Of a stretch of 64,000 nucleotides of DNA, positions 17,299-48,451 are shown piece after piece. The position numbers were made by a program, and so were the translations under genes. Position 1 is the first letter of the stretch. Every line of letters starts with the position of its first letter. The notes beneath the pieces are model-generated. The model was not told where the DNA came from. It did no database searches and saw only the letters and a list, made by a program, of their open reading frames with translations. This DNA comes from Thalassotalea hakodatensis (GTDB taxonomy: Bacteria > Pseudomonadota > Gammaproteobacteria > Enterobacterales > Alteromonadaceae), in assembly GCF_030295995.1 (NCBI RefSeq), contig NZ_AP027365.1, forward strand, positions 1,240,001-1,304,000, given 5' to 3'.

Positions 17299-17387
17299 AG
17301 AAAACAGACACCCACTAATAAATATAAAAATGTATCCATTGTTTGAAAGATAAATTAGTATGTAATTAGACGTGGTGTGAGAAATAG

Positions 17388-24158: not shown

Positions 24159-24187
24159 CAACATTTGCCCAACAGATATAGGTATTG

Positions 24188-24210
24188 AACAAACATTCCT
24201 AATGTTTGTT
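24188..24210. promoter_or_regulatory. Perfect palindrome upstream of dgt
   Basis: AACAAACATT and AATGTTTGTT form perfect 10-bp arms around CCT, 53 bp before the dgt start. No T-run follows on either strand, so an operator is more likely than a terminator. The binding protein is unknown. Confidence 0.55.
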
Positions 24211-24263
24211 GGAATTGTAAATTTATAATTATTGAATAATAACAATATTAAGGGAACAGCAGT

Positions 24264-25742: not shown

Positions 25743-25871
25743 ATATATGATTTGGAAGTATGAGTTTAATTCAGTACGAATTGAAGCGTTTTAGTACCAA
25801 TTCGTTGCAAGTTTGCATTTTAGCTTCTAAAAATGAAGCATGTATTTAAAAACTATTTGAACAGGCAAATA

Positions 25872-26102
25872 ATGAGCAAAGTAGATACTCATCAATCAGA
25901 ACAAAATATACAGTTATGTAATGATCAATTATCACTTAATCAGCGCATCATGATCAAAAATGTCCGAGAGGCTATTGCTAACAATCGTATTGACGGCCTA
26001 TCAATAAATCCTATTCTGATAGAGAGAGTAATTGCAGCATGTAAAGATAATCAGAAACTAGATGCTGAACAATTGATCAGAGAGTTTGTAACTCAAAATT
26101 AG
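25872..26102 (+). CDS. Small protein resembling VbhA-type antitoxins
   Basis: A 76-residue protein starting at ATG 25872 (AGG about 9 bases ahead); an upstream ATG at 25833 would add 13 residues. The segment KNVREAIANNRIDGLSI followed by LDAEQLIREF resembles VbhA-like antitoxins, small helical proteins that block Fic AMP-transferases. No Fic gene (HPFxxGNG motif) is nearby, so if the match is right this is an orphan or acts on another partner. It converges on the 118-aa gene with stop codons directly abutting. Confidence 0.45.
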   Translation: MSKVDTHQSEQNIQLCNDQLSLNQRIMIKNVREAIANNRIDGLSINPILIERVIAACKDNQKLDAEQLIREFVTQN

Positions 26103-26459
26103 TCAACTAGCGTTATTTTTAAAAATAGAACTCACAACTTCAACGGTTCCCTTCAGATCATTCAAAGCTACTTTTTTAAATACGGCTGAGGCTGGTTTTA
26201 ATTTTTTTTCACAAATAGAACCGAATTTACTGCCTGTCAGACCAGAAGATTTTTGCTTTCTTCTATATTTTTTAAGTTGACGTGCGTTCAGTTTTTGCAA
26301 TCGATCAACTTTTTGGTGATAATACCTTTGTCCCATTTCCTTTACTTTAGCGATAGTATCAAAAGTAACGATTGGGCTATTAGCGATGGAATATTTATCT
26401 TTCTGCTTGAACAGTATGGATAAGCGTTTCTTCTGTAGGCGTATTAATTTTCTTTTCAT
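26103..26459 (-). CDS. Small very basic protein of unknown function (118 aa)
   Basis: Not recognised. About a fifth of the residues are Lys, with two Lys/Arg-rich clusters near the N-terminus (MKRKLIRLQKKRLSI) and at about 60-75. This could suit nucleic-acid binding. It has no signal peptide. It is convergent with the VbhA-like gene, stop codons touching, which argues against a classical toxin-antitoxin operon. It may be a spurious ORF in an accessory region, but it is the only reading frame in this stretch. Confidence 0.35.
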   Translation of the reverse strand: MKRKLIRLQKKRLSILFKQKDKYSIANSPIVTFDTIAKVKEMGQRYYHQKVDRLQKLNARQLKKYRRKQKSSGLTGSKFGSICEKKLKPASAVFKKVALNDLKGTVEVVSSIFKNNAS

Positions 26460-26714
26460 TTTTAATCATTGTTTTTGATATAGAAGATAAGTTGTTATCA
26501 ACATTAAGTAAAAATCATGGTTCTACCAAAAGTCATTTAATTAAAGCTTCATTGATACTTTTAAATTTACTAATCCTAATGGAACCAGTAATTATTTTTC
26601 AAGGCAGGGTTTGTGTTCCCCCCTAAATCAAATAAGCAATACACATGGAGCTAATGTCTAAGATGTAACAGCGTCAATTCGTAGTGTTGTTGTCAGATTC
26701 AACTACTAACACTG

Positions 26715-28694
26715 TCATTCTTGTTTATTGTCTTCTAGTTTAAACCAGCCTTTTTCGTAGGCCAAACTTCCCCACAAAACATGTGCTAAAGCTATCTCTG
26801 ATAGCTTAGGGTTATCATCGCTAGAAGTTAATGCGTTATGGGCATAATTATAAGTGAAACTCAAAGGGGCCTTACTCGGTTGTAGAATAACAACTTTATC
26901 ATTAGCCATGTATGCGAAATTTTCTGCATATTGCATCATTGCGCGATTTGAAGCGTCTGGATTAGTAAGGTCATGTCCCAACATGGGAGATTGATTTTCT
27001 ACTCCCATTAATGAGAGTAAGGTCGGACCTAAGTCTATCTGACTTACAACGCGTTCATCTAATTTAGGGGATATTCCAGAATTTAAAATAACACCGGGAA
27101 TATGAAAGTTGTTTATTGGGACTAAATCACTTCCCATCGCCCTTGCATCATGATCCGCAACAACAAGAAAAATGGTGTTTTCCCAATATGGTTGTGTTTT
27201 AGCTTTAGCAATAAAGTTTCCTAACGCATAGTCAGCATATTGAATAGCCTTATGTCTAAGTAATTCCTTTGCGTCATACTTTTGTAACTGGTTGTCGGTA
27301 TATTCAATCGGTGTAATAACTCCTTCTGGGATTTCAAAAGGGTCATGATTACTAGAAGTGAATATAAAACTAAAAAATGGTTGTTTACGATTGTGAAGTT
27401 CGGTTAATTCAATATCTGCTTGATTAAATAAGTCTTCATCACTGGCTCCCCATGAAGCAACAAATTGAGGGTTTTCAATATCGTCAAAATCGACAATATC
27501 AGTGAAACCATTGCCTAAGAAAAAGCTTTTCATGTTATCAAAGTGACTTTCTCCACCATAAATAAATTGGGTTTCATAACCTTTATTATTAAGCAGAGAA
27601 GCAATTGTGAAGAAGTCTTTTTGAGATTTATCAAGCTTAACTACAGCTCTTGATGGAGTGGGCGTAAATCCCGTTATTACTGCTTCAATACCTCTTACAG
27701 AGCGAGTTCCAGTCGCATATAGCCTTTTAAAAGCCCAGCCTTCGGCATTCAATTTATCTATTTCTGGTGTCAGTGGTATACCACCAAGTGACGACACAAA
27801 TTGAGCGCCCAAGCTTTCCTCTAAAATAATGACTAGATTTTTAGGTTGTCCTTGATAAACAGGTGCACGTTTAGATAATGATGGCAATTTAGTGTTAACG
27901 AAACTATTTGGCGAAATGTTTGTTTCTTGTTTTACTAATTCTATGACTCTTTTTTCGTCCATTTTTCCATATAGCTTAGCTGCATTTTTCTCATCGCCAA
28001 ACTGTTTGAATGCATAGGCCACACTATAAATGGAGTTTAATGTTAGCGAGTTTATCAGTGGGTCAGTTGAAAAATAGACCAAAGCGGGGTTAATAGGACG
28101 ATGGCCTAATGTGCCTCTGGCACAAAGCAGTATTGTTAAGAAGAGAATTAAAAAAGCCAGAGTAGAACTTTTCATATTTACTGATGTAAATGATGACTTA
28201 ACGATCAGTATTCTGCCAAGGGCCTTCCAAATGAATATACTAGAAATGAATAGCAGTATTAATACTATTAGTAAGGTCGCTAAATGACCATTTATAAGCA
28301 TTTTTGTCACTTCATCTGGATACGCTAGATACTCAATAAATAATCGATTAGGTCTAAATCCGTATTCGTTAATAAAGGCAGGAGTCGCTAATTCAAAAAA
28401 TATGACTGAGATTGCAGCGATGGAAAACCATAGTTTTAGTAATACTAACCACCATTGCTTAAATTTTGTGACAAATAACCAAGGATGTAATAAAGCAGGT
28501 ATGGCGCATAGGTAACCAATGGTACTTAAATCGATTCTAAAGCCATTGATTAAAAGCGTTGAAACGCTACTAATGTCGCTAAATCGATCTAACTGCCAAA
28601 ATGTCAATCCTAGTCTTGATAATAAAAGGACTAGGATAGTTACAATAGAATAAATTAAAAAAGGTCTTAAAGTACAATATACAGCAGTAAACAT
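26715..28694 (-). CDS. LtaS-like sulfatase-fold phosphoglycerol transferase
   Basis: A 659-residue inner-membrane protein: five N-terminal membrane segments (about 12-195) and a periplasmic alkaline-phosphatase-fold domain (about 265-610). The metal site and nucleophile marks of the LTA synthase family are present: IILEESLGAQ, ATGTRSVRGIEA with the likely Thr nucleophile, YGGESHFDNM, WGASDEDLF, SSNHDPFEIP and VVADHDAR. These enzymes move phosphoglycerol from phosphatidylglycerol onto envelope glycans or lipids and leave diacylglycerol. A gene for DgkA, which recycles diacylglycerol, lies just upstream. CTTAAG boxes precede it at 28744-28771, so it probably has its own regulated promoter. Confidence 0.85.
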   Translation of the reverse strand: MFTAVYCTLRPFLIYSIVTILVLLLSRLGLTFWQLDRFSDISSVSTLLINGFRIDLSTIGYLCAIPALLHPWLFVTKFKQWWLVLLKLWFSIAAISVIFFELATPAFINEYGFRPNRLFIEYLAYPDEVTKMLINGHLATLLIVLILLFISSIFIWKALGRILIVKSSFTSVNMKSSTLAFLILFLTILLCARGTLGHRPINPALVYFSTDPLINSLTLNSIYSVAYAFKQFGDEKNAAKLYGKMDEKRVIELVKQETNISPNSFVNTKLPSLSKRAPVYQGQPKNLVIILEESLGAQFVSSLGGIPLTPEIDKLNAEGWAFKRLYATGTRSVRGIEAVITGFTPTPSRAVVKLDKSQKDFFTIASLLNNKGYETQFIYGGESHFDNMKSFFLGNGFTDIVDFDDIENPQFVASWGASDEDLFNQADIELTELHNRKQPFFSFIFTSSNHDPFEIPEGVITPIEYTDNQLQKYDAKELLRHKAIQYADYALGNFIAKAKTQPYWENTIFLVVADHDARAMGSDLVPINNFHIPGVILNSGISPKLDERVVSQIDLGPTLLSLMGVENQSPMLGHDLTNPDASNRAMMQYAENFAYMANDKVVILQPSKAPLSFTYNYAHNALTSSDDNPKLSEIALAHVLWGSLAYEKGWFKLEDNKQE

Positions 28695-28743
28695 CGCCAG
28701 AGTATCTCGATTATGGACAAGAAGCTCACGCTACCTTATGAAA

Positions 28744-28771
28744 CTTAAGAAATGCTTAGGATAAACTTAAA
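28744..28771 (-). promoter_or_regulatory. 11-bp-periodic CTTAAG boxes upstream of the LtaS-like gene
   Basis: CTTAAG (28744), CTTAGG (28755) and CTTAAA (28766) start exactly 11 bp apart, 50-78 bp before the LtaS-like start. PmrA/CarR-type regulators bind direct repeats of this kind. The same pattern is found before the Omp85 gene and the response-regulator gene. Confidence 0.65.
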
Positions 28772-28787
28772 GTACTTAACCCAAAGA

Positions 28788-28967
28788 CTAATGTTGCTTT
28801 TCTGCCGGACGTTTGAGAATTGTGCCTGTTAAATAACCCAAGTTCATAGACATAGATATTGCATTACCACCCGTTTCTCCGAGTGTTGTTGCTAGCACTT
28901 TTATTGTCCAAAAAACTAATGTGCTCTGAGGAACCTTTATTAAATTTTCATTGATATTAGTATTCAA
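28788..28967 (-). pseudogene. Truncated DUF347/COG4705-type membrane protein
   Basis: A 59-codon frame from TTG 28967 (AGAGAG about 6 bases ahead) reads VPQSTLVFWTIKVLATTLGETGG, then SMSMNLGY, the first repeat of the COG4705 predicted membrane proteins (DUF347), which normally run to about 250 residues. After LTGTI the family pattern ends in an unrelated tail and a stop. It is therefore probably the 5' remnant of a lost gene, although a translated 59-aa peptide is possible. It lies between dgkA and the LtaS-like gene, on the same strand. Confidence 0.6.
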
Positions 28968-29016
28968 ATACTTTCTCTCTAAATTTCTGATATGTGACGT
29001 TGGATGTAAGCTGCGT

Positions 29017-29382
29017 TTACCATAAAATTGCTAACCAAGTTAAGACCGCTATTACTAGACTAATAAATACCGCAGCAGAACCTAAGTCTTTCGCTAAACC
29101 TGATAGAGGGTGAATTTCTAAGCCAACTCTATCAACAATGGCTTCAATAGCAGTGTTGAGTATTTCAGTAAACAGAATGAATAATATCGCTATAATTAAT
29201 ATAAGTTGTTCATTTACCGTTATCTCAAATAAAAAAGTAATTGGAATCGCTATAACTAAAAGTAGAAGTTCCTGTCTGAAGGCAGCCTCGTTTTTGATAA
29301 GCCATTTAAATGCTCTAGCAGAGTTCAATGTGGCAAGATAAACTCGTTTCAAACCTTTAGGCTTATTTTCATTATTAAACAT
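29017..29382 (-). CDS. dgkA: Diacylglycerol kinase DgkA
   Basis: A 121-residue three-helix inner-membrane kinase that turns diacylglycerol into phosphatidic acid. The family signature is seen in NEAAFRQELLLL (about 31) and FTEILNTAIEAIVDRVG (about 76-92), with catalytic Glu in the first helix region. The start codon directly follows the eptA stop (TAAATG), so the two are translationally coupled. EptA strips phosphoethanolamine from phosphatidylethanolamine and leaves diacylglycerol, so linking DgkA removes the by-product. Vibrio and Shewanella polymyxin-resistance loci have the same pairing. Confidence 0.96.
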   Translation of the reverse strand: MFNNENKPKGLKRVYLATLNSARAFKWLIKNEAAFRQELLLLVIAIPITFLFEITVNEQLILIIAILFILFTEILNTAIEAIVDRVGLEIHPLSGLAKDLGSAAVFISLVIAVLTWLAILW

Positions 29383-31068
29383 TTATCGATTAGCTCCATT
29401 CTTAGTATTTTGGTGTACTGTTTGTGCGATAGCACCCGCTGTTTTGCATTGATTTAGAGGGTTGTTTTGCTTAATAAAAGTCTTTGAGTCCACCGACATT
29501 TCACTTAGTAAAATATCAAATACATTATCGTGGGATATATTTTTGTCACTCATTTTACTTACGCAACTGACTCTTTCATTCTGATGTAATGAATCTGCCC
29601 AATAAATTAAAGGTACATGAGTTTGTTCTTTGGGGGCAAAAGCATAGGGTAATCCATGCAGAAATACGCCACTCTCACCTAACGATTCTCCGTGATCTGA
29701 TATATAAATCATAGATGTTTCTATATCTTGTGATTGACTTAACATATTTAGCTCGCTTATAACTTTAGAGAGAACGTAATCGGTGTAGGCTATTGTATTG
29801 TCGTAAGTATTGGCTAATTCTTCTGTGCTGCAATTTTGAATATCACTTCGTTGGCAGTCAGGGATAAAGATACGATTCTTATCTGGATAACGCTTATAGT
29901 AAGTGGGGCCATGAGAACCGATCATATGGAGTACAATTAAGGTGTCTTCATGTGTTAGCGATGCAAGTTTTTGCTTTAATGGTCTAAGCAGAACTTCATC
30001 AACGCAATATTTACCATCACACAACGGGTCAGTATTTGTTGTGTCGATCTGCAAGGTTTTTACTCTATTACAAACACCTTTGCAGCTACCATTGTTGTTA
30101 CTAACCCAAAGTACATCTGCTCCAGCAAGGTGGATAATATCTAGCGCATTTTGCTGAGCAATTGCCAGACGTTTATCGTAATTTTCTTTGTCTAACCTAG
30201 AAAACATGCAGGGCACGGATACCGCAGTAGCTGTTCCGCAAGAACTGACATTTTTAAATGAGACGACACCTAACTTTTCAGTAAATTGATTGGTTGGTTT
30301 GTGATAGCCATTTAAAGAAAAACTTTGAGCACGAGCTGTTTCGCCCAATACTAATACCGTTACATGTTTAGTGTGCTTTTCATTCACAATTACCGGGTTT
30401 GTATCTAATAGGGTAAATTTTAAAGGAGGGTATAAGTAATTTCTCTGAAGATACTTTACGGTTGAATCAATTAATGCGTATGGGGTTAAGTAGCCAACTA
30501 AGTCACGATTATTTCTACCGATAGAGGCGTAACTTGAGTAAAAAACGAGAACGATAAGAACCACTATTCCAAAACTTACTCCCATTAATTTTGTTCGATC
30601 AAATAACTCCCCTAAAAATGACTTATAAGTTAGTCGTATTTTTGCAATCAATATTGAGGGCAATATGCCAAATGTAAATAGGAATATAAATGCTGAAAAA
30701 TTGACGTATGAAAGGGCTTCTGCCGTGTCTGTCTCAACCGTGTTTTGTATCATGCCATAGTCGAAAACAATGCCATAAGTAATGCTGCTGTAAAAAACAA
30801 CCGAAGAAACCATTACTAATAGTATAAGCAGAGGCTTCGTAATCCATCTAAATGCAAAAAAGCATTGTAGAAACACTGAAAGACATAGTAATAAAACTGG
30901 AATAGAAATTAAGAAGAACTGGTTGAACTCATCAAGTCTAGTGATTGCTGCTGTTGTTTTTATAAAGAAAGGGATATTGAGTAAAAAAATCACGTAGCTA
31001 CAAGTAAACAAGACCAGTTTATTTGTAGAAAACGTAAATGAATTGAACAAGTTTGTTACTTTATTCAT
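29383..31068 (-). CDS. eptA: Lipid A phosphoethanolamine transferase EptA
   Basis: A 561-residue inner-membrane enzyme that adds phosphoethanolamine to lipid A and lowers binding of polymyxin and other cationic peptides; mobile MCR enzymes belong to the same family. Five membrane helices occupy about residues 16-180. The periplasmic domain shows LGETARAQSFSLNGY with zinc ligand Glu243, SCGTATAVSVPCMFS with the Thr nucleophile (279 or 281), HMIGSHGPTYYKRYP and ISDHGESLGE. Cys pairs for the usual disulfides are present. It starts 9 bp after the Omp85 gene, in the same operon. Co-regulation by the adjacent two-component system is inferred from the shared promoter boxes. Confidence 0.96.
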   Translation of the reverse strand: MNKVTNLFNSFTFSTNKLVLFTCSYVIFLLNIPFFIKTTAAITRLDEFNQFFLISIPVLLLCLSVFLQCFFAFRWITKPLLILLVMVSSVVFYSSITYGIVFDYGMIQNTVETDTAEALSYVNFSAFIFLFTFGILPSILIAKIRLTYKSFLGELFDRTKLMGVSFGIVVLIVLVFYSSYASIGRNNRDLVGYLTPYALIDSTVKYLQRNYLYPPLKFTLLDTNPVIVNEKHTKHVTVLVLGETARAQSFSLNGYHKPTNQFTEKLGVVSFKNVSSCGTATAVSVPCMFSRLDKENYDKRLAIAQQNALDIIHLAGADVLWVSNNNGSCKGVCNRVKTLQIDTTNTDPLCDGKYCVDEVLLRPLKQKLASLTHEDTLIVLHMIGSHGPTYYKRYPDKNRIFIPDCQRSDIQNCSTEELANTYDNTIAYTDYVLSKVISELNMLSQSQDIETSMIYISDHGESLGESGVFLHGLPYAFAPKEQTHVPLIYWADSLHQNERVSCVSKMSDKNISHDNVFDILLSEMSVDSKTFIKQNNPLNQCKTAGAIAQTVHQNTKNGANR

Positions 31069-31077
31069 TTATAAACC

Positions 31078-32673
31078 TTAAAAAGAGTGCTTAGTAGTTA
31101 TGCGAAACTCAACACCATTGACATTTTCACCATTGGTCATAGGCTTGATAATATCGATATGAATGACACGTGCTTCGCTGGTTTGAGTGGAGTAGAACCG
31201 AGCACCTATACCGATAGAAGTCATCCAAGACTCTTGGTTAAATTCGCTTTCGCTTTGACTAAAAACCTTGCCCGTATCGATAAATGCAGCACCGCCAACT
31301 TCAAGCAATTTATAAATATTGATATGTGGGTAATAGCGAGCTTCTAGTGTAAATTGCGTACTGTGATCACCTTGCTGGTATTGGAGTGGATAGCCTCGTA
31401 AACCCGACTCACCTCCTAACGCAATTGGAAGGTCTTTGTATTGATTTTTACTGATCTGACTTACATTCTTAAAATATGCTCCCCAATTTTCATTTATCTT
31501 TTGGAAATATTCATTACTAATGCTAAGCGATATTCTATTTTCGTTTTCTGCTGAGCTGTAAATCTCACCGTCAAATGACGTAGTTAGTAGCCAATAGGCA
31601 TCTTTAAAAACATTAGCGCCTTTGGATAGGTTTGAACGCCAAATTATGGTAGGAGATGTATTAGTTTTACCAAGGTCAGAGCCAATATCAGAGGTGATGT
31701 GCCAACCAAGATTAAAATCTTCAATATGATTAATTAAATTAAGGTTTGTCAGTTTACGAAAGTCTTTTTGTAAATATTCGACACTTAAAAATGGGTAACT
31801 AAATTCGCGATTTTTAGGGAGAGCTGAATTAGGTTGTTCGCTCAAGCTAAAGAATTGATGTTGCTCATTGGTATAGCCAATACCAAAGCGCAAAGTATCT
31901 TCATTTGTATCATTATCAAGCCATTGCCAACTTGCGGTTGAATACCTTTGATTATGCTGAAATTGATTGGAAACTTGACCATTATTATATTGAGTATCGA
32001 GTTGTTTAAAATTATTAAAACCGATATTGAATGCGTTCGGTGTATCGAAGCTAACAAAGTTCTTCTGTAGAAATATAGCTTCAGAAGTGCCGTCATCATT
32101 ACTTGTAAGTCGAATACTTGCTTCAATATTATTATTTAAATACAGGGGGAAACTGGTTTTGAATTTATATCCGCTGCGCTGATCATTAGTGAATGACTCA
32201 ATTTCAGCATCAATGCCTAGGCCTAAAAAATTTCTGTCTTTAATTCCAATAGCATATTTATTTTTACCTCCCTTCCTAGAGAAGTCGATAGTGGGCATCA
32301 ATGACCAATTATCCCAAGTTTCTATGCTAATTTGATTTGTTTCCTCCTGAATCGATACTTTGGCATCTTTAATGTATTTTTTGCTTCTGAGGTGGCGCTC
32401 TAGTTCTGCAATATCTTGAACATCAATGTCACATTTTTTTATAAAAAAAGCGGCTTCGTTATACAGTGCTTTTTCTTTTGTTTTTATATGAAGTAAGTTG
32501 GCCCAGCGATGTAGGAATATTGTATCTGGATCAGATAGATCGAAAATATCTTGGGTAGACAGAATTACGCGTTCTTTTTGATTACAACGATCCGTATTTT
32601 CTGTTGCGTTAAGTTCGGCTGTAACGAATGAAAATAGTATTAATGTAACGTTGTAAACAGATATGAGCTTCAT
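31078..32673 (-). CDS. Omp85-superfamily outer-membrane protein
   Basis: A 531-residue protein with a signal peptide (about 1-23), one or two POTRA-like segments (about 35-125, ending in EERHLR-type LERHLRSKKYIKDAKVSI) and a 16-strand-type barrel. The diagnostic L6 motif is present as GGESGLRGYPL (about 438). The family includes translocation and lipid-transport proteins such as BamA, TamA and surface-antigen barrels. With short N-terminal domains and placement before eptA, a role in envelope remodelling is plausible but unproven. CTTAAG boxes lie in the 119-bp gap upstream. Confidence 0.82.
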   Translation of the reverse strand: MKLISVYNVTLILFSFVTAELNATENTDRCNQKERVILSTQDIFDLSDPDTIFLHRWANLLHIKTKEKALYNEAAFFIKKCDIDVQDIAELERHLRSKKYIKDAKVSIQEETNQISIETWDNWSLMPTIDFSRKGGKNKYAIGIKDRNFLGLGIDAEIESFTNDQRSGYKFKTSFPLYLNNNIEASIRLTSNDDGTSEAIFLQKNFVSFDTPNAFNIGFNNFKQLDTQYNNGQVSNQFQHNQRYSTASWQWLDNDTNEDTLRFGIGYTNEQHQFFSLSEQPNSALPKNREFSYPFLSVEYLQKDFRKLTNLNLINHIEDFNLGWHITSDIGSDLGKTNTSPTIIWRSNLSKGANVFKDAYWLLTTSFDGEIYSSAENENRISLSISNEYFQKINENWGAYFKNVSQISKNQYKDLPIALGGESGLRGYPLQYQQGDHSTQFTLEARYYPHINIYKLLEVGGAAFIDTGKVFSQSESEFNQESWMTSIGIGARFYSTQTSEARVIHIDIIKPMTNGENVNGVEFRITTKHSF

Positions 32674-32716
32674 TTAGCCACCTCTTTTGAGTGTGGCTTC
32701 ATGTTATGCATCGAAG

Positions 32717-32744
32717 CTTAAGATTGGCTTATCTGAAACTGATT
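32717..32744 (-). promoter_or_regulatory. 11-bp-periodic CTTAAG boxes upstream of the Omp85-eptA-dgkA operon
   Basis: CTTAAG (32717), CTTATC (32728) and CTGATT (32739) start 11 bp apart, 44-72 bp before the Omp85 start. The first box sits in CTTAAGATTGGCT, an exact 13-bp match to the site before the response regulator. Confidence 0.65.
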
Positions 32745-32792
32745 ATCCTATCTATATAGACTTAAATTTGGGGAGTAAATGTATTGTTTAGA

Positions 32793-35003
32793 CTAAAAAT
32801 GATATCTAACCTTGGCAAAAATATTATGTGGATCTTTTGATTTAAAAGCTTCCTTGTATAGGTTTACTTTTCCAAATTTGGCTATGTCATTTTCATATTC
32901 ACCGCCAAACCCATAACTTAAGTAAAATGCAGTAAGTTTACTCATGGAGAATTTATAGCGAAATTGCAAGGCATTCTCAGAAAATGAAAAGTCTTCAAGT
33001 TCAGTTAGTGTAACTGTGCTTCCTTCAAAATTAGCTTCATATTGATTCAAATGTTTCGCTTTACCTATAAAGGATTCGAACTTGATTCTTAATTCATGAT
33101 TATCGGTAATATGGTAGTTTAAGCTGAGTGCTACACCTTGTTCGGTAAAATTGTATTCATCAATAATATTATTCTCATTCCAATCAATCCAGCTATCACT
33201 ATTATATTGCGACAATGTTAACCCAATATGGATGTTGTCATTGAACTGCTGTTCAATGAGGGCTTCAATATTATAAAAGTTGCCAGAAAAGCCTTCTTTT
33301 CCGGCCTCTACTTGAATCCCATATTTGCCCCAATAATACTCTGGAGAGCTAATATCGAGTTCAACATTGTCAAATGCAGGGAGTAATAGAGAATTGTTTC
33401 CACGAGTGATTAGATCATCATAACCAGAACTGCCATGTTCATACGATAGTTGATACTCAAATTCACCATCAGTTACCATTTCTATACCTGTACCCAATAT
33501 CAGCGGTAATTCTTCATCTTGAAAATTTGTCTTAGCTTCTAATTCAAATACCAATACAAGGTCTCTTACCGACATATTGTTGAAGTTTGGGATTTTATAT
33601 TGGTATTCGTATTCAAACTGTTTTCTGTTCACTCTTTTTACATAACCAACATCATTAAGTTGTAGATCTTCACCATAGGTAAACAAACTAAATTCATGGC
33701 TATGGCGTTCATTAATCTCTGAACTTCCCATTAGCCACCACCCTAAATCACTAACAGAACTCAAACCTTGATCAATATTTGAATTTACTATGCCCAAAGT
33801 TATTTCAGTATCTTCAGTTATTGCGTATTGCAGATCCGTGGAAATAATTGTCGATTTTCGACTGATACTGGGAGTGTCTACTTGGTTGATTAAAACTCCT
33901 AGTTTACTTGCATCTAGAGAATATTGGCCCCGCAAAACCCAGAAGTCTCTACCTAGGTTGTTGCTATCAGCTTCAAGTGCTGACATGAAACCTAAATCAA
34001 GGTGATTGTGACTAAAGGTATATTTAAGTGCTAAATCTAGTTCACCAGCATAATCATCGTCATAATATGATTCCCCGCCAATTCTTGGCGTATGTACTAG
34101 TCTGAGTGTCTCTGGTCCTGATACATCAAAAATACTTTGATTTTCATTGAAAAAAGGGCGCTTTTCAGAGAAAAAACTTTCTATTGCCGAAAAATTTACG
34201 ACTAGTTCATCCGATTCAACTTGACCAAAGTCCGGGTTGATTGTCGCGCTAATTAGTTGATTTTTGGTAGGCTTCCAAAATAACTCAGCGCCCAATACAG
34301 AAGAATTATCATTGCTGTCAATATCTCTGTTTAATGCGATGTAGGGATATAAATCAAAGCTAGCTTTACTATTAATGACGACACTTTCTTTAGAAAAACT
34401 TTGCAGAAAACTATTCATTTTCAAGTTAGCAGGGGTAGAAGAATAAGTCGCATTAGTTGCTTCATCAAATCGATTAACAGACATTCCGAATATATTCTGT
34501 TTTTGGATATTAAATGACATGGTATCCCAAGGTATGAAAATCTCAGCGACCCAAAATTCGTCATCATCTTTGGTTTTAAATTCCCAATTACCATCCCAAT
34601 CTGCATCGAGTTCTTTATTCGTTTTATAAATCCCATCAAAATAACTTCCTTGATGGTTTACGGAAAAGACATAACTTTCTTGTTCTGAATTATCCATATC
34701 CAGCATGATCTGGATGTTGTCATTCGAAAAAAGCGTATCGTTTTCTTGTGTCCTTACTCTGAGATCATTTTGTTTAAAAGAGGTTATGCCAACGTATATT
34801 CCATTTTCCGATGCTACATATTGGCAATAAAAATTACCTTCAAATTTTAAAAGTGTTTGAGGAATAACCTGATAGTTGGATTTGAATCTAATGGACTCGC
34901 TCCATATCTCGTCATCAAGTTTTCCATCTATGAGGACTTCGTTTGCTTCGATAGCGCTGACAGAGGCTACACACAACAATACGATATAGATAAATCTGTT
35001 CAT
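32793..35003 (-). CDS. CBM9-like/DUF5916 outer-membrane protein
   Basis: A 736-residue protein with signal peptide (about 1-20), an N-terminal CBM9/DOMON-like domain (IDGKLDDEIW near 26 to EFWVAEIFIPWDTMSF near 170) and a long C-terminal region of alternating aromatic strands ending in KVRYHF, typical of an outer-membrane barrel closing on Phe. The family (DUF5916) has no firm biochemical role; some members sit beside glycan or lipid processing genes. Its ATG overlaps the sensor-kinase stop (TAATG), so it is co-translated with the two-component system, which is unusual for an outer-membrane protein. Confidence 0.8.
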   Translation of the reverse strand: MNRFIYIVLLCVASVSAIEANEVLIDGKLDDEIWSESIRFKSNYQVIPQTLLKFEGNFYCQYVASENGIYVGITSFKQNDLRVRTQENDTLFSNDNIQIMLDMDNSEQESYVFSVNHQGSYFDGIYKTNKELDADWDGNWEFKTKDDDEFWVAEIFIPWDTMSFNIQKQNIFGMSVNRFDEATNATYSSTPANLKMNSFLQSFSKESVVINSKASFDLYPYIALNRDIDSNDNSSVLGAELFWKPTKNQLISATINPDFGQVESDELVVNFSAIESFFSEKRPFFNENQSIFDVSGPETLRLVHTPRIGGESYYDDDYAGELDLALKYTFSHNHLDLGFMSALEADSNNLGRDFWVLRGQYSLDASKLGVLINQVDTPSISRKSTIISTDLQYAITEDTEITLGIVNSNIDQGLSSVSDLGWWLMGSSEINERHSHEFSLFTYGEDLQLNDVGYVKRVNRKQFEYEYQYKIPNFNNMSVRDLVLVFELEAKTNFQDEELPLILGTGIEMVTDGEFEYQLSYEHGSSGYDDLITRGNNSLLLPAFDNVELDISSPEYYWGKYGIQVEAGKEGFSGNFYNIEALIEQQFNDNIHIGLTLSQYNSDSWIDWNENNIIDEYNFTEQGVALSLNYHITDNHELRIKFESFIGKAKHLNQYEANFEGSTVTLTELEDFSFSENALQFRYKFSMSKLTAFYLSYGFGGEYENDIAKFGKVNLYKEAFKSKDPHNIFAKVRYHF

Positions 35004-36424
35004 TACACAATAATGGTGAATGTAATCTTATCATCAGTACAAAGTGCTACTGAGATGTCAGCGTTAATTTTTTCACAATATGATTTTACGATAGCTAAAC
35101 CTAAGCCATAGCGCTGTGTTGAAGTTCGAGATGAGTCTTTTTGCCATAGAGGTTCAAAAATCTGATTTAAATCACTTTCTTTAAGTGCCTGTTCATAGTT
35201 ATTTGTAATTTCGATCAATACTTTATTATCGGGTGCACATTTCATGTCAATGCTAATAGGAGAGTTCGCTGGGCTGTAAAATAAAGCATTGTTTACCAAG
35301 TTAGACAATATGGTTTCTAGTGCTATGTCATTAGTGATAACAAGTGGGAGAGCTTCTGGTGATGAAACTAGTATTTTTCTGCCGTCTTTATTTTCACGGC
35401 TTATGATTTCTTCAAAAAGCGTGAAAATATTAATATCTGTTTTTTCTAATGCTGCATTATTACTACTTTTTTGCAAAAGCAGAATCCCATTAACGATATT
35501 TTTCAATCGTGTTGATATGTCTTGGACATCATTCGTAAAATTATCTGTAATTTGTTTTTCGTGAGGGAACTTTAACGCTACCTCGCTTAAACTAAGAAGT
35601 TCTGCAATCGGGGTCTTTAGTTCATGAGCGATATCAGATGTCACTCTTTTTTCACGTGTATATAGCGCCTGATTTTCTTCAATAAACTGGTTTACTCCTT
35701 TCGCAATTGGTATTAACTCTAAGGGCAATTCGTCAGTAGCGATTTCTCGTTTTTCAGAATTAAGATTTACTTGGCTAAGTTCAGTATTAAATTTAACAAT
35801 GGGTTGAAGGGTTCTCTCTACTACGTTAAAGACTATTTTTTTCACTGCAAACACAGCGGTGATCGAGGTAATTACAAAAATAATGTCAACAAACCAAAGT
35901 ATATGATTTAGTTCTTCTTTACTCAGCGCATAAGCAAACTCCATTGGTTTTTGTGTTTTCGCAAACTCTTCTCTACTAATACTTAGCTCTTCTCTTAAAT
36001 CAGAATCGATTTGCGGTAAAAATTTTGTGAATAACACTCTCCCGGCACGCCCATCGGGGAGTGTAATATCTTTAAAGACGAATTCGTTTAATTTTACTGA
36101 ATATTTAGGAAGGTCTTTTACCTCAAAAAATTCTAGCGTATCGGAACGTTCAAACACTTTATTGTTATACCAAAGCTGGAAATACTCAGGGTTTTCTTTG
36201 CCTTCAAACTCAGGCATGAATTCACCAGCAAACTCAAAGTCAACTTCTGTTTCATCTTCTTCAACTAAAGTTTCAAGTAGTCCGACTTTATTCTTCATTG
36301 CGCGGTCAAACTCGCTGCTAATCCAAGTGTCAACGCTGATGTCGGTAGCAAGTAAAATAGCTACTAGGAGAAGCGAAATTGAGAGTGATAAATATAGACT
36401 GAGCTTTTTCTTGATTGAATTCAC
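35003..36424 (-). CDS. Sensor histidine kinase of a PmrB/CarS-like two-component system
   Basis: A 473-residue inner-membrane kinase. Membrane helices at about 9-27 and 175-195 flank a periplasmic domain whose residues 55-80 are very rich in Glu/Asp (EEDETEVDFEF, then EFMPEFEGKENPE). Phospho-acceptor His267 lies in SDIAHELKTP. The N box LSNLVNNALFYSP and G box YGLGLAIVKSY complete the ATPase. Acidic periplasmic patches in PhoQ and PmrB respond to divalent cations, Fe(III) or cationic peptides; a like role is inferred. Start is GTG overlapping the regulator stop (TAGTG). It should phosphorylate the regulator encoded upstream. Confidence 0.92.
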   Translation of the reverse strand: MNSIKKKLSLYLSLSISLLLVAILLATDISVDTWISSEFDRAMKNKVGLLETLVEEDETEVDFEFAGEFMPEFEGKENPEYFQLWYNNKVFERSDTLEFFEVKDLPKYSVKLNEFVFKDITLPDGRAGRVLFTKFLPQIDSDLREELSISREEFAKTQKPMEFAYALSKEELNHILWFVDIIFVITSITAVFAVKKIVFNVVERTLQPIVKFNTELSQVNLNSEKREIATDELPLELIPIAKGVNQFIEENQALYTREKRVTSDIAHELKTPIAELLSLSEVALKFPHEKQITDNFTNDVQDISTRLKNIVNGILLLQKSSNNAALEKTDINIFTLFEEIISRENKDGRKILVSSPEALPLVITNDIALETILSNLVNNALFYSPANSPISIDMKCAPDNKVLIEITNNYEQALKESDLNQIFEPLWQKDSSRTSTQRYGLGLAIVKSYCEKINADISVALCTDDKITFTIIV

Positions 36425-37110
36425 TAATTGTTCTCTACAAAATATCCAAAACCACGTTTTGTTTTAATTGGCAGGTCATAACCTAGGGCCTTTACTTTTT
36501 TTCTAGCAGTTGATAGATGTGCTTCAATGGAATTTTTAGCAACAGCATCATATTGACCTGCCAAGTACTCACTTAACTTTTCAGATGAAAGAACCTTTCC
36601 TTGGTTTGAAAATAAGCACTCAACAATTTTATATTCGTTTGGTGTTAGATTCGCGTCTATGCCTGCACATTGTAGTTGCTTTAAATGAAGATCTAATGAA
36701 AGTGGGCCTAAATTAATTTTACTATCATTGATATTTAGGCTTCCTCTGCGCATTAAACACAATAAGCGAACATGAAGTTCATCAAATGAAAAAGGTTTAG
36801 TCAGGTAATCATCTGCACCATTGAGTAGTCCTTCAACTTTATCCTCTGTTAAATCTCGTGCAGATAAAATAAGAACTCGAATGTCTTTTTTGGCTTGCCT
36901 TACGGCTTTTAGAATTGAGGTGCCATCAACAGACGGTAGCATTAAGTCTAACACCAATAGTGAATAATCACCTGAAAGAGCCATGCTTAAGCCTTCAGAG
37001 CCATCACCTGTATCATCAACGGTAAAGCCAAGATTGGATAAACCCACTCTTAAGCTTCGTCTTAATGATGTTGAGTCTTCTATGATTAGAACTTTCAAAG
37101 CAGTAGGCAC
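36424..37110 (-). CDS. OmpR-family response regulator (PmrA/CarR-like)
   Basis: A 228-residue regulator with receiver domain (acidic pair IIEDS, phospho-acceptor Asp near 55 in LVLDLMLPS, Lys near 105 in LTKPFSFDEL) and OmpR-type winged helix (LTPNEYKIVECLF ... KKVKALGYDLPIKTKRGFGYF). The GTG at 37110 gives MPTALKVLII; a TTG four codons later would give the classical MKVLIIED start with AGGTG 9 bases ahead, so the true start may be 37098. It leads an operon with the kinase and the DUF5916 gene. Three CTTAAG-like boxes in its own promoter suggest autoregulation. Confidence 0.92.
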   Translation of the reverse strand: MPTALKVLIIEDSTSLRRSLRVGLSNLGFTVDDTGDGSEGLSMALSGDYSLLVLDLMLPSVDGTSILKAVRQAKKDIRVLILSARDLTEDKVEGLLNGADDYLTKPFSFDELHVRLLCLMRRGSLNINDSKINLGPLSLDLHLKQLQCAGIDANLTPNEYKIVECLFSNQGKVLSSEKLSEYLAGQYDAVAKNSIEAHLSTARKKVKALGYDLPIKTKRGFGYFVENN

Positions 37111-37148
37111 CTAATAATGAAAAATACAAAGTATATTATCCTCCCAAT

Positions 37149-37187
37149 CTTAAGATTGGCTGAATTTACACTTAAGTTACCTTGATT
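37149..37187 (-). promoter_or_regulatory. 11-bp-periodic CTTAAG boxes in the response-regulator promoter
   Basis: CTTAAG (37149), CTGAAT (37160), CTTAAG (37171) and a weaker TTGATT (37182) start 11 bp apart, 34-78 bp upstream of the regulator. The first lies inside the palindrome CCAATCTTAAGATTGG. A TAATAT -10-like box lies between the boxes and the gene on the minus strand. Confidence 0.7.
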
Positions 37188-37454
37188 TCCTCCTCATGAT
37201 AGACAAAAGAGATTTGAAATTCACTGCGTAATCTCTCAAGGGGGCTTTTGAATAATTTCTAAACAATGTTCAATTTAGTTGCATTTTGATATTAATTAAT
37301 AGAAATCAGTATTAGAGACTATATAATAGCACCATTAGCAGCGGCGAGCTGCTTGTGATCATCTGAACAAAGTGGATTCACTCGTCATAATATTCTCCTT
37401 ATTTGTGTAAAGTAGAACAGCGTGGTGAGCTGTCATACTGCTAGCGGTATCAGT
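37188..37454. other. Divergent intergenic region
   Basis: Noncoding stretch between the two-component operon and the 119-aa plus-strand gene. It holds a TATAAT hexamer at 37322-37327, a GCAGC/GCTGC hairpin at about 37339-37353, and a 13-bp sequence at 37368-37380 that recurs ahead of the next gene. No further gene is seen. Confidence 0.4.
37368..37380 (+). repeat. 13-bp direct repeat, copy 1
   Basis: CAAAGTGGATTCA lies 75 bp before the 119-aa gene start; an identical copy at 37904-37916 lies 87 bp before the 382-aa gene. The similar placement suggests either a shared operator or a duplicated leader. Confidence 0.45.
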
Positions 37455-37814
37455 ATGTCATTCGAAAATGAACACCATCAATCTTTGGATAATATTAAGC
37501 GACAGGCTAAAAGGCTTGCTAAAACTATAGATATTCCTCTTACCGAAGCCCAATTTTTGCTTGCAAAATACATCTATCTTGAAAACTCTTTTGGCGATAT
37601 TAAAACGAAAATTAAGTGTGATGAGTCAACCGGAAGAATGTTTTTGACGAATGTATCGCCAAAATCAAATGAAGAAGTTCAATCTACATTTATAAATGAA
37701 TTTGGTGACTTATTAGTATCTATCCAAAATAGCCCTATGGTTACTCTTTATAACGGCTCTGCAAGAGAGTTATTAGTGAAGGTTTTTGGTGTTTCTGCTG
37801 ATAGTAAAATCTAA
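37455..37814 (+). CDS. Protein of unknown function sharing an N-terminal domain with the next gene
   Basis: A 119-residue protein starting at ATG 37455 (MSFENEHH); an in-frame upstream start at 37422 is less likely. Residues ~8-48 (IKRQAKRLAKTIDIPLTEAQFLLAKYIY) match a helical motif found at the start of the following protein and in various small accessory-genome proteins, where it precedes a GYxxW-like helix. The function of that domain is unknown. The rest shows no known motif. The gene lies in the accessory region to the right of the recombinase element. Confidence 0.55.
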   Translation: MSFENEHHQSLDNIKRQAKRLAKTIDIPLTEAQFLLAKYIYLENSFGDIKTKIKCDESTGRMFLTNVSPKSNEEVQSTFINEFGDLLVSIQNSPMVTLYNGSARELLVKVFGVSADSKI

Positions 37815-37903
37815 TACTTCCATTTTTAAAAATTGTTTATTAGGATAGACACTGGTTGACTGGACAGCCTGCATCTGCCAAATGCATTAATTGCATTTTA
37901 GGG

Positions 37904-37916
37904 CAAAGTGGATTCA
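37904..37916 (+). repeat. 13-bp direct repeat, copy 2
   Basis: Identical to 37368-37380 (CAAAGTGGATTCA) and similarly placed relative to its downstream gene. Confidence 0.45.
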
Positions 37917-38002
37917 TTCAGAAAATTTGTATTTACGTTAGTAGAACGAGCCTCGGCAGGTGTTCGTTTAACAACCTTTCTAACAGTGAGAGTAACGTGA
38001 GT

Positions 38003-39151
38003 ATGCCGAACAATAATTCAACTAAAAATATCTTTCTTCAAGCGAAAAGAGCATCAAAACTTCTCGACATTCCTTTAACAAAGGCAAAAGATCTAATCGC
38101 TAATTCTATCTACCAGTGCCACAACTACGAAGATTTATTAAACAAGCTTGCTAATAATAGTCTCAAAGCTTCTGTGTATCCATTTTGTAAAGTGCATCCA
38201 AATTCTGGAATTGATGCTCAAAGTCACATTGAAAAAAACTTAGATACGATAGCTAAACGCTTTAAAAAATTCTTGAATGTATCCGTCGAGAAGATTCCTT
38301 TATTTACTCTAATTTGGAGGATATTTGGTCTCCAAAACCAATCTAGCATTAATCAAGTATTCCCACACATTTCATTAGAAAATTGGCAACTTTATCCACC
38401 GTTGTCTTCTGAAGAAAACCCTACTTCATATTATGACATCAAAATTAATAATGTCCCCTTTAGGATCTTAGCAACGAGAATTATCACGTCTTGCATGTTC
38501 ACTGATAACAGCCTAAATGAACTATTGACATTAAAAAGTGAATTTTCAAAATTCAAATTCCCTCCAATAATGTGGAGTGATTGGAAACATTGGCAAGATA
38601 AAGCTTTGTTGTCTTTTAACTCTATTGGTCTAGGAAATGGACCACAACAGCCCATATTTGAAAAATTAGCAGAACCAAAATGTGATTTTCAAAAGACATT
38701 TCAAGATAGGCTTTATGAATCAATTTCTGCATTATCTGAAGAATTCGTTGGAACGAATATCCGGTATTGTGAATTTGATCAGCACATGTTTTATATCATT
38801 GGTTTTCCAATAAATAACGAAAGTAGTACGTTGGATTATCTTGATATATATCTTACAAATGAACACGTCAAAAATGGAAAATGCTTATTTAACTTTGAAG
38901 ATAATCTGCTCGCGTTAGAGTTATTTGAAATCAATAAAGACGGCGAGTTTGTGGGTGATGATGATGACTATTACAAAGCCCTTTCAAGTTCTTTACAACA
39001 GTTTGAAGAAGCGATGACAAAAAATATTGTAATTGACGGGAAACAATACGAGGCGTACATGCGGCCTTGTACACTTGCTGAATATGCAATATATAAAACC
39101 TCTGCAATAACATTAATTGATGACTTACATGATGAACAAAAAGCCGGATAG
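38003..39151 (+). CDS. Protein of unknown function (382 aa), paralogous N-terminus to the preceding gene
   Basis: I prefer ATG 38003 (MPNNNSTKN); a GTG two codons earlier (37997) and a far upstream TTG are alternatives. Residues ~6-45 (IFLQAKRASKLLDIPLTKAKDLIANSIY) repeat the motif of the 119-aa neighbour. The remaining ~330 residues are soluble, acidic near the C-terminus (a run of five Asp) and match nothing I know. Tandem placement, shared N-terminal domain and shared upstream repeat suggest duplication followed by divergence. Not recognised as a defence or toxin gene. Confidence 0.6.
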   Translation: MPNNNSTKNIFLQAKRASKLLDIPLTKAKDLIANSIYQCHNYEDLLNKLANNSLKASVYPFCKVHPNSGIDAQSHIEKNLDTIAKRFKKFLNVSVEKIPLFTLIWRIFGLQNQSSINQVFPHISLENWQLYPPLSSEENPTSYYDIKINNVPFRILATRIITSCMFTDNSLNELLTLKSEFSKFKFPPIMWSDWKHWQDKALLSFNSIGLGNGPQQPIFEKLAEPKCDFQKTFQDRLYESISALSEEFVGTNIRYCEFDQHMFYIIGFPINNESSTLDYLDIYLTNEHVKNGKCLFNFEDNLLALELFEINKDGEFVGDDDDYYKALSSSLQQFEEAMTKNIVIDGKQYEAYMRPCTLAEYAIYKTSAITLIDDLHDEQKAG

Positions 39152-39250
39152 GTTAAGATTTGGTTTCAATAGGAATTTAAGGCTAGCTTTTAATTTAAAC
39201 CAGCCGTTTAATAACTAAATTTCCTTGAAAATATTTTCGCCAAGTGATGC

Positions 39251-40162
39251 TTAAACTTTATTAATTTCGACGGTTAGGTGTGAAATTTCAGTGTTACTTT
39301 TAATGATTTTTTTGAAGTCGTCAGGGTCTTTATTTGATGACGTGGCGACAGAAATGATGGCGCTAAGGTGTTTACTTGATAGCTTCCAAATGTGTAAGTC
39401 TGTGACAACGGTTTTGCCATCATCTTCTATGCTGGCTACAATCTTGTTTTTAACTGATTCATTAGCTGATTTATCAAGAAGAATGTCACTACTTTCAGTT
39501 AGCAAGTTATACGCCCATTTCATTATGATTATTGCTCCTATTATACCCATCATCGCATCAGCCCATAACCAGTTAAAATATTTGCCAGAGAAGAGCGCTA
39601 CGATAGCAAAAAGAGACGTTAGAGTATCGGCAAGGACGTGAAAATAGGCTGCTTTCAAATTGTGATCATGATGATGAGTATGGTCATCATGCCCGTGATG
39701 ATGGTGGTGATTATCATGGAGGAGAAACGCCGAGACTACATTCACCAGAAGTCCAATAATTGCAACCGCGATGGCTTCATCGAAACGAATTGTTTGCGGT
39801 GAAAAAAGCCGCCCGACTGATTCAATTATCATCATCAAGGCTACCGCACCTAAAGCTACAGCACTTGCGAACCCGCCTAAAGTATTAACTTTACCCACAC
39901 CAAAAGAATACGCGCTGTTATTTTTGTGTTTTCTTGAGTACCAGTAAACAAAAATTGAAACAGCAAAAGCGGCGGAGTGAGTAAACATATGCCATCCGTC
40001 GGCTAGGAGCGCCATCGAGCCAAACCATACTCCAGCAACGATTTCTAGAATCATAGTTAGTGTCGTGATTGCAAAGACGATCGTCACTTTCTTTTCAGAA
40101 TGTTCAGCGTTAAATGCAAAATTATGTGAATGCGCCCACTTTTCGGTTGCTTGCTCTCGCAT
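39251..40162 (-). CDS. dmeF: CDF-family Co(II)/Ni(II) efflux transporter, DmeF type
   Basis: A 303-residue cation diffusion facilitator with six membrane helices and a C-terminal cytoplasmic domain. Metal-site helices show ALLADGWHMFTH (helix 2) and HVLADTLTSLFA (helix 5). Between helices 4 and 5 is a strongly His-rich loop (HHHHHGHDDHTHHHDH), typical of DmeF. The ATG at 40162 has GAGG about 9 bases ahead; a TTG at 40177 would add five residues. It is transcribed away from an RcnR/FrmR-type repressor gene across a shared operator, as in known dmeRF loci, and should export Co(II) or Ni(II) from the cytoplasm using protons. Confidence 0.9.
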   Translation of the reverse strand: MREQATEKWAHSHNFAFNAEHSEKKVTIVFAITTLTMILEIVAGVWFGSMALLADGWHMFTHSAAFAVSIFVYWYSRKHKNNSAYSFGVGKVNTLGGFASAVALGAVALMMIIESVGRLFSPQTIRFDEAIAVAIIGLLVNVVSAFLLHDNHHHHHGHDDHTHHHDHNLKAAYFHVLADTLTSLFAIVALFSGKYFNWLWADAMMGIIGAIIIMKWAYNLLTESSDILLDKSANESVKNKIVASIEDDGKTVVTDLHIWKLSSKHLSAIISVATSSNKDPDDFKKIIKSNTEISHLTVEINKV

Positions 40163-40190
40163 TGATGTGTTCCTCAATAAATATCGTGTT

Positions 40191-40212
40191 ATACTATACT
40201 CCCCTATAGTAT
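40191..40212. promoter_or_regulatory. Operator between dmeF and its repressor gene
   Basis: Perfect 8-bp arms ATACTATA and TATAGTAT surround CTCCCC, giving a C/G tract flanked by an inverted repeat, as in RcnR/DmeR-type sites. It lies 29 bp from the dmeF start and 19 bp from the repressor start, so one site could control both genes. Confidence 0.85.
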
Positions 40213-40230
40213 TTGAGGCAATTGGAAATT

Positions 40231-40506
40231 ATGGCGCACATACACGACGATAAAAATGCAATACTGGTTCGAATAAAGAAAATTCGTGGTCAAACTAATG
40301 CTATCGAGAAGGCTTTAGAAGACGGCTCTGATTGTGTTGCAGTCTTGCAGCAAGTAGCCGCAATTCGCGGTGCTGTTAACGGTTTGATGAATAAAGTACT
40401 AGAAGACCATATTAGACAGCATATAGGTCAGATTGACTTGACTAAAGAAGAGCGAGAAAGTGAAGTCGAGGCTCTGATTTCAATACTAAGCTCTTATTTA
40501 AAATAA
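40231..40506 (+). CDS. Metal-responsive repressor of the RcnR/FrmR (DUF156) family
   Basis: A 91-residue four-helix repressor starting at ATG 40231 (MAHIHDDKN); an upstream in-frame ATG at 40213 lies immediately beside the operator and is less likely. Family marks are RIKKIRGQTNAIEKAL, the metal-binding Cys in SDCVAVLQQVAAIRGAVNGL and EDHIRQHI with the His ligand. The N-terminal His residues (positions 3 and 5) fit a Ni/Co sensor rather than formaldehyde-sensing FrmR or CsoR. It should repress dmeF and itself and release DNA when metal binds. Confidence 0.9.
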   Translation: MAHIHDDKNAILVRIKKIRGQTNAIEKALEDGSDCVAVLQQVAAIRGAVNGLMNKVLEDHIRQHIGQIDLTKEERESEVEALISILSSYLK

Positions 40507-40601
40507 GTATATTTATCAGAATAAATGCTCTTTGATAAAATTCCTTTTACCAAAAATATGTGTGAGTCAGATAAGTTACTATTCAAAATATGGGTCTCTG
40601 T

Positions 40602-40629
40602 AAAAAAAACCGATTGCCAATCGGTTTTT
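40602..40629 (+). terminator. Intrinsic terminator before the BlaI-like gene
   Basis: ACCGATT/AATCGGT stem with GCC loop, A-run before and five T after, so it can work in both directions. A near-identical 26-bp sequence recurs inside czcC at 42081-42107. Confidence 0.8.
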
Positions 40630-40670
40630 GTTGTGTCACCATGCTGCTAATGAAAATAAGAGTATGATTT

Positions 40671-41054: not shown

Positions 41055-41056
41055 CA

Positions 41057-42037: not shown

Positions 42038-42050
42038 TTAAGGACTAGAA

Positions 42051-43331: not shown

Positions 43332-43339
43332 GAGTATCT

Positions 43340-44572: not shown

Positions 44573-44582
44573 GAGCGTTTAA

Positions 44583-48426: not shown

Positions 48427-48451
48427 TAAATTAAAAAGATAAGAGAAATAT

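Follow-up and report, generated by a model that had tools for sequence, protein, structure and literature searches.

The DNA considered here, called the window, is a stretch of 64,000 nucleotides of Thalassotalea hakodatensis (contig NZ_AP027365.1, positions 1,240,001 to 1,304,000). Its subject is a block of envelope genes that includes a two-component system and whose three promoters carry CTTAAG-like boxes repeated every 11 base pairs (bp). The genes of the block are as follows:

36424..37110, minus strand: OmpR-family response regulator, the proposed activator (Pfam Response_reg and Trans_reg_C above cut-off)
35003..36424, minus strand: sensor histidine kinase whose sensor region is acidic and conserved (Pfam HisKA/HATPase_c; sensor-region alignment)
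32793..35003, minus strand: DUF5916/CBM9-like protein, third gene of the regulator operon (Pfam; its start overlaps the kinase stop)
31078..32673, minus strand: probable Omp85-type outer membrane protein (sub-threshold NCBIfam match, predicted structure, Foldseek)
29383..31068, minus strand: EptA, phosphoethanolamine--lipid A transferase (NCBIfam NF028537, 576.2 bits against a cut-off of 500)
29017..29382, minus strand: DgkA, diacylglycerol kinase (Pfam DAGK_prokar)
26715..28694, minus strand: LtaS/OpgB-like membrane protein of the sulfatase fold, a possible phosphoglycerol transferase (Pfam Sulfatase)

The regulator, kinase and DUF5916 genes overlap end to start. The regulator may truly begin at the TTG at 37098, as alignments start at residues 3-5 in most relatives. 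The sensor region of the kinase (residues 31-178) holds 33 acidic and 19 basic residues, and a stretch reading EFxPEF...PEYFQ is conserved in it in most of 21 aligned kinases. PmrB and PhoQ serve as analogues for cation and peptide sensing, and by likeness to them it may be guessed that this kinase senses cations or peptides. EptA falls below the narrower NCBIfam equivalog and MCR cut-offs, and the best NCBIfam matches of the LtaS-like protein, phosphoglycerol transferase I and LtaS, are both far below cut-off. The Omp85-type protein had no match in the Pfam scan, and its NCBIfam Omp85_fam score of 31.5 bits lies below the cut-off of 200. Its predicted barrel, of moderate confidence (predicted local distance difference test score, pLDDT, 61), was counted as weak support, and its best Foldseek matches were BamA, TamA and CdiB at low template modelling (TM) scores of 0.31-0.45. 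In a check for the POTRA/barrel RG motif, G424, R426, G427 and P429 were invariant in 16 homologs.

The nine boxes placed by an earlier, sequence-only reading lie exactly at its coordinates, 11 bp apart. On the plus strand, site 1 reads CTTAAG at 28744, CTTAGG at 28755 and CTTAAA at 28766; site 2 reads CTTAAG at 32717, CTTATC at 32728 and CTGATT at 32739; and site 3 reads CTTAAG at 37149, CTGAAT at 37160 and CTTAAG at 37171. The boxes at 32728, 32739 and 37160 are weak matches to CTTAAG. Because the genes of the block are on the minus strand, the sites are best read on that strand, where all nine boxes fit nnTnAG (family consensus nYTMAG) and all three sites share the form [nnTnAG-N5]x2-CTTAAG-N10-TAnnnT. 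The gene-strand sequences are TTTAAG-N5-CCTAAG-N5-CTTAAG at site 1, AATCAG-N5-GATAAG-N5-CTTAAG at site 2 and CTTAAG-N5-ATTCAG-N5-CTTAAG at site 3. The promoter-proximal box is a perfect CTTAAG at all three sites, and a -10-like hexamer stands exactly 10 bp on. The elements are listed below, read from the sequence unless another basis is given (R1 is the site model described further on):

28766..28771, minus strand: site 1 (LtaS-like gene), outer half-site TTTAAG
28755..28760, minus strand: site 1, middle half-site CCTAAG
28744..28749, minus strand: site 1, proximal half-site CTTAAG (R1 match 28726-28771, 35.3 bits)
28728..28733, minus strand: site 1, -10-like hexamer TAGCGT (sequence; placed as in relatives)
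32739..32744, minus strand: site 2 (Omp-eptA-dgkA), outer half-site AATCAG
32728..32733, minus strand: site 2, middle half-site GATAAG
32717..32722, minus strand: site 2, proximal half-site CTTAAG (R1 match 32698-32745, 26.6 bits)
32701..32706, minus strand: site 2, -10-like hexamer TAACAT (sequence; placed as in relatives)
37171..37176, minus strand: site 3 (regulator operon), outer half-site CTTAAG (kept in relatives)
37160..37165, minus strand: site 3, middle half-site ATTCAG (sequence and relatives)
37149..37154, minus strand: site 3, proximal half-site CTTAAG (R1 match 37132-37178, 34.7 bits)
37133..37138, minus strand: site 3, -10-like hexamer TAATAT (TA and T invariant or almost invariant across 31 sites of relatives)

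The gene positions agree with the earlier statement that the three sites precede the LtaS-like gene, the Omp85-type-eptA-dgkA unit and the regulator operon. The 13-bp sequence said to be common to two sites, CTTAAGATTGGCT, occurs exactly twice in the 4,275,310-bp genome, at 32717 and 37149 of the window. Chance clustering of AT-rich CTTAAG words could be proposed for such an arrangement, as the window holds no excess of single CTTAAG words (22 against about 21 expected from base composition, a hand estimate) and loose three-box patterns are common. With 3 mismatches allowed, the loose pattern gave 209 + 206 matches in the genome, against 152 + 147 for a reversed-pattern control; these were too many to be useful, and therefore a model was made from relatives. 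Chance is nevertheless hardly credible, being contradicted by ranks 1-3 under this external model, by the specificity of the spacing, by the fixed distance to the -10 and by the 13-mer unique to two sites.

Relatives were collected by searching 147 family genomes for the protein at an expectation value (E) of at most 1e-50, which detected the regulator in 28 genomes, with an identity of 86-100% in 14 of these, the home genome among them. A total of 29 loci were taken, and their neighbouring genes were located by tblastn. The model R1 was built from sequence alone, from 31 sites of 13 related loci, none of them from the window. It left out candidate promoters scoring below 14/16, namely those of eptA in L068, L069, L071, L073 and L080, which stand behind an Omp gene or its remnant, and also those of eptA in L075 and L078, where sites were later found further upstream; the LtaS site of L077 was moved by 11 bp to fit the register of R1. 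On the home genome, where 150 of 4155 first-look candidates were scored, the window sites were the best three of 14 matches at E<=10, with E of 4.6e-8, 6.4e-8 and 1.5e-4, and the next match had 0.07. Within the window, with filters off, the three scores listed above are followed by a fourth of 10.2 bits. On the question of whether the same boxes recur at random frequency elsewhere, the sequence-only reading thus held, as strong sites were found only at the three promoters. The regulon accordingly looks closed in the home genome, as far as predicted sites can tell.

The same arrangement is conserved in relatives, as was seen in a spacing test that does not depend on R1. Three YTMAG boxes were scored in up to 150 bp upstream of each gene, with at least 14/15 counted as a pass. 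At a spacing of 11 in the 13 close loci, a site stands before the regulator in 13/13, before LtaS in 10/10 and before the heads of Omp/eptA operons in 8/11, and at none of 19 internal gene starts. Spacings of 7-10 and 12-16 gave 0 or 1 pass per class, and shuffled promoters of the same classes pass in about 0.1%. To avoid circular selection, 14 further close loci were picked by the regulator protein alone, independently of R1. There the sites precede the regulator in 13/14, Omp in 6/6, LtaS in 7/7 (26/27 for these three classes) and eptA in 5/12, with 0 passes in all four gene classes at the nine other spacings. The missed regulator promoter (L186) has an R1 site about 260 bp upstream; of the seven loci missed for eptA, six are ones in which Omp was detected, and the seventh (L192) has an R1 site about 200 bp upstream.

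A wider scan of GTDB genomes for the regulator gave 58 loci, from Colwellia, Pseudoalteromonas, Paraglaciecola, Psychrosphaera, Alteromonas, Idiomarina, Shewanella olleyana and Aliivibrio among others. R1 was run on 56 of them (9 are the same contigs as training loci), leaving out L230 and L231 at 34% and 27% identity, and returned 133 matches at E<=0.05. The 106 matches at E<=7.0e-4 were mapped to the next gene and the other 27 were left out. The regulator follows 41 of the mapped sites, LtaS 21, eptA 15, Omp 12 and other genes 17, so that 89/106 precede regulator, LtaS, eptA or Omp genes. Among the 17 others, six are of a PAP2-phosphatase type (282-284 aa) and eight of a single glycosyltransferase type (95-265 aa); a further one is a glycosyltransferase of 343 aa, and in two cases no open reading frame (ORF) lies within the limit used. 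One representative of each of three types was scanned against Pfam and NCBIfam, and the others were assigned from their length, position and appearance. In relatives, the operator thus also stands before genes for a PAP2 phosphatase and an ArnC/PgfS-like glycosyltransferase (L185:14339, L197:4500, L214:7222). Predicted regulon membership thus varies by lineage.

In the 13 close-locus genomes, R1 gave 42 matches at E<=1e-3. Of these, 38 are near the regulator on its contig, and the other 4 are on contigs (G134:C9 and G076:C81) that hold the eptA, dgkA or LtaS genes missing from the regulator's contig; no strong site at this threshold was found away from the regulator or its cluster. Most of the 42 are training sites, and the informative part is therefore that no strong site stands elsewhere. 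Another 15 matches had E of 0.001-0.1, and among seven that were looked at, one lies before a further eptA (G134:C5), one before a detached LtaS (G041) and one before a divergent LtaS beside a second regulator of G033. The other four, at G130:20171-20889 (E 0.004-0.06), lie inside a repeated unit and were treated as chance. Outside these 13 genomes, the match at G021:1216661 is followed by ORFs of regulator-like and kinase-like length whose translations are other proteins, and it is probably chance as well.

These data make it highly probable that the linked regulator of the OmpR family activates two further operons besides its own, forming a closed, PmrA-like regulon for the modification of lipid A and the envelope. 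The claim of one regulon under its own two-component system is strongly supported by the comparison, since the sites precede the regulator itself in the close and further loci and the same envelope genes in relatives.

Co-occurrence points in the same direction. Over the 147 genomes (sites at E<=1e-3 with stricter filters and 40 candidates scored per genome, regulator at E<=1e-50), 20 had both, 8 had the regulator but no site, 7 had sites but no regulator and 112 had neither (Fisher p 7.5e-13). Without the window's own and the 13 training genomes, the counts are 6, 8, 7 and 112 (p 5e-4).

Several observations weigh against a regulon of the linked regulator or qualify its support. The 7 sites-only genomes lack a close regulator homolog, and the 8 regulator-only genomes lack an R1 site at the same threshold, although seven of those eight have a two-box version before the regulator. 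In one of the 20 genomes with both (G095), the only site precedes a seemingly unrelated ORF. The best R1 matches in four genomes of the same genus, all of them without the regulator at E<=1e-50, have E of 0.067, 0.0024, 0.164 and 0.086; the second of these, in G021, precedes an LtaS homolog, so the site can exist without this regulator. As R1 sites were chosen by their boxes, box conservation in sites found with R1 is partly circular. The polarity of the half-sites relative to the gene is ambiguous, since R1 matches the eptA and pmrR boxes of E. coli on the strand opposite the gene (16.0 and 10.9 bits). A reversed polarity is not claimed, because CTTAAG is palindromic and the PmrA box given for A. 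baumannii in the accessible text of PMC10927774, TTTAAG-N5-TTTAAG, reads like the gene strand here.

A further point of this kind is a second regulator of the home genome, QseB/PmrA-like and encoded at 2037934, which is nearer to PmrA (210.6 bits, also below the cut-off of 330) than the linked one (165.1 bits). Upstream of its gene stands TTCAG-N6-TTCAG, a repeat of 11 bp built on the same type of half-site. This closeness and the related repeat make cross-talk possible. If the boxes were read mainly by such another PmrA/QseB-like regulator, the linked one would be an extra input or have lost the role. In the sites-only genomes, 8/11 sites still precede Omp (3), LtaS (2), eptA (1) or glycosyltransferase-like genes recognized by look (2). 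As these genomes keep the boxes before the same gene set, the boxes are a wider operator language for those genes, some of them probably read by other regulators. Another regulator as the main reader of the window's boxes is nonetheless unlikely: R1 has no match at E<=10 near 2037934, the same-species genome G066, which lacks the block, also lacks a strong site, and sites and linked regulator occur together, with a site at the regulator's own promoter across relatives. A kinase remnant lies beside operator sites in G140 (L235:4212-4448), a genome without a close regulator homolog; this is perhaps a recent loss of the regulator.

The linked regulator is still preferred as the activator, and its protein can be compared with PmrA. 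Its best NCBIfam match is PmrA, and at 165.1 bits it fails the PmrA equivalog (cut-off 330). In the part of the PmrA-DNA structure report that is available (PMC4660055), N188, N196 and R210 are named as reading bases. N193 and R219 of the regulator correspond to two PmrA base-reading residues and are invariant in 29 homologs, while N196 is replaced by T201. By sequence, the regulator looks built to work like PmrA; it should not be filed as PmrA.

The description of the boxes as PmrA-form sites is supported, with qualifications. The PmrA box is given as CTTAAT-N5-CCTAAG in Klebsiella and CTTAAG-N5-XTTAAT in Salmonella in the accessible text of PMC3973317, and CTTAAG-N5-CTTAAT stands at the promoters of eptA and pmrR in E. 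coli K-12. The inner two boxes fit this form, being two near-CTTAAG half-sites 5 bp apart, and eptA, a target of PmrA, is a predicted target here, linked and in a unit that carries a site. In contrast, the three promoters and the close clade have three half-sites, whereas PmrA boxes as described there have two; the targets here also include Omp85-type and LtaS-like genes, and strong sites cluster in one block.

The label "CarR-type" found no support for the box. The accessible text of PMC10433830 gives GACAN6TACA for V. vulnificus CarR; this motif has three matches in the window (chance mean 2.0) and none at the three promoters. In the Vibrio CarRS/VprAB and RstAB systems, a two-component system beside eptA and dgkA controls polymyxin resistance, according to the available portions of PMC10433830 and PMC12064563, and the position next to eptA and dgkA is shared with the present system; compared by motif and gene content alone, CarR differs in both. 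PhoB, as far as the accessible text of PMC4415409 describes it, binds head to tail to 11-nucleotide direct repeat units whose number and organization vary between Streptomyces promoters. The OmpR family and the 11-nucleotide direct repeats are thus common to PhoB and the present regulator, whereas the half-site sequence (CTGTCAT in E. coli) and the targets differ. A literature search found no paper on this system in Alteromonadales, which says little as most subscription journals were outside the search.

The anatomy of the operator was further resolved with 66 distinct sites from outside the training set. All 66 have the half-site core (T, then AG) at the proximal position, 62 have it at -11 and 59 at -22. 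These counts are partly circular, because the sites came from R1 matches and were aligned by their inner boxes and the -10. The positions further out act as controls and show the core at -33 in 8, -44 in 7, +11 in 1 and +22 in 1. A43 and T47 of the R1 alignment are invariant and T42 is nearly so, and the -10 letters played no part in site choice. For 16 distant regulators (50-70% identity), the inner two boxes are present at spacing 11 in 15, against 1-7/16 at other spacings, and TAnnnT follows 10 bp on in 14; a good third box is present in only 4. This indicates that the core is a two-half-site box of the PmrA form and that the third, outer half-site chiefly marks the close clade.

Any -35 hexamer would lie between boxes 2 and 3, and a consensus scan found no sigma-70 pair on the gene strand at the three promoters, which suits activation. 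Since the boxes overlap the -35-to-spacer region, with the proximal box in the -35/-10 spacer where a bound protein could block polymerase, they might instead be repressor operators, or the regulator might repress. This is very unlikely, because PmrA and PhoB activate from the same place (at the Klebsiella pbgP promoter the -35 is at half-site 1, in the accessible text of PMC4660055) and the missing consensus pair fits activation. Class II type activation is the likeliest mode, judging by the -35 position and the Klebsiella parallel.

For the regulator as an activator, we infer the following course. The kinase would signal, in response, by analogy, to cationic peptides or low divalent cations, and the phosphorylated regulator would bind the nYTMAG half-sites, 11 bp apart on one face of the helix. 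Conserved direct repeats of this spacing lie at the regulator's own promoter and at linked promoters in relatives. Bound regulator would then activate three promoters without a consensus -35, and with them the regulator-kinase-DUF5916 operon (positive autoregulation), the Omp85-type-eptA-dgkA unit and the LtaS-like gene. The inner two half-sites would stand in for a classical PmrA box, near the expected -35 and in the spacer, 10 bp from the -10. The third half-site, one turn upstream, may seat another protomer or raise affinity. The output would be a modified lipid A and envelope, to which EptA would add phosphoethanolamine while DgkA would recycle diacylglycerol, and the LtaS-like and Omp85-type proteins may add further envelope changes. 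The block probably remodels the outer envelope against cationic antimicrobials.

The regulator is present in one of five genomes of the genus, the home genome. The same-species genome G066 matches window positions 940-17300 at 99%, about 50490-63980 at 87% and 49730-50370 at 83%, and another of its contigs matches 44520-48940 at 68%; it has nothing at E<=1e-10 for 22500-42400. In this comparison, which left out 19900-22500 and 42400-44100, G066 closely matches the flanks and not the interior, and the block therefore lies in a segment of about 32 kb (17300-49700) that is absent from G066. No tRNA was found in the window, nor were the segment ends or a mobilizing gene.

Other features of the window were noted. 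Positions 13053-25742 hold a TPR protein, a patatin-like protein, two HD-domain proteins and large ORFs without Pfam match (17388-23637), and could be a defence-type cluster. Three RND-type efflux pumps lie near the envelope block, in the region 41057-63628 (44583-47741, 50495-53695 and 60500-63628; Pfam ACR_tran). A short dispersed repeat at 936-1077, perhaps a miniature inverted-repeat transposable element, has more than 20 similar copies in G066, and 1106-2920 encodes a peptidase of the M2 (angiotensin-converting enzyme) family (750 bits).

A broader reading is possible, though we would not quite call it probable: a portable, self-wired regulon, with a regulator of non-PmrA lineage, patchy in Alteromonadales and some Aliivibrio, that travels with its kinase, envelope genes and three-half-site operators. 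If so, a recipient would gain regulated rather than constitutive envelope remodelling in one step and without core regulators, and the third half-site would be a derived feature that makes a sharper or more private switch. EptA-based resistance to cationic peptides is mostly known from enterics or from mobile mcr genes without their own regulator. Here, the regulator, kinase, enzymes and operators are together in one strain-specific marine block, with an operator code that predicts targets from sequence. The system is thus suited to asking how whole regulons transfer, what a PmrA-type switch gains from a third half-site and which part Omp85-type and LtaS-like proteins play in a lipid A programme.

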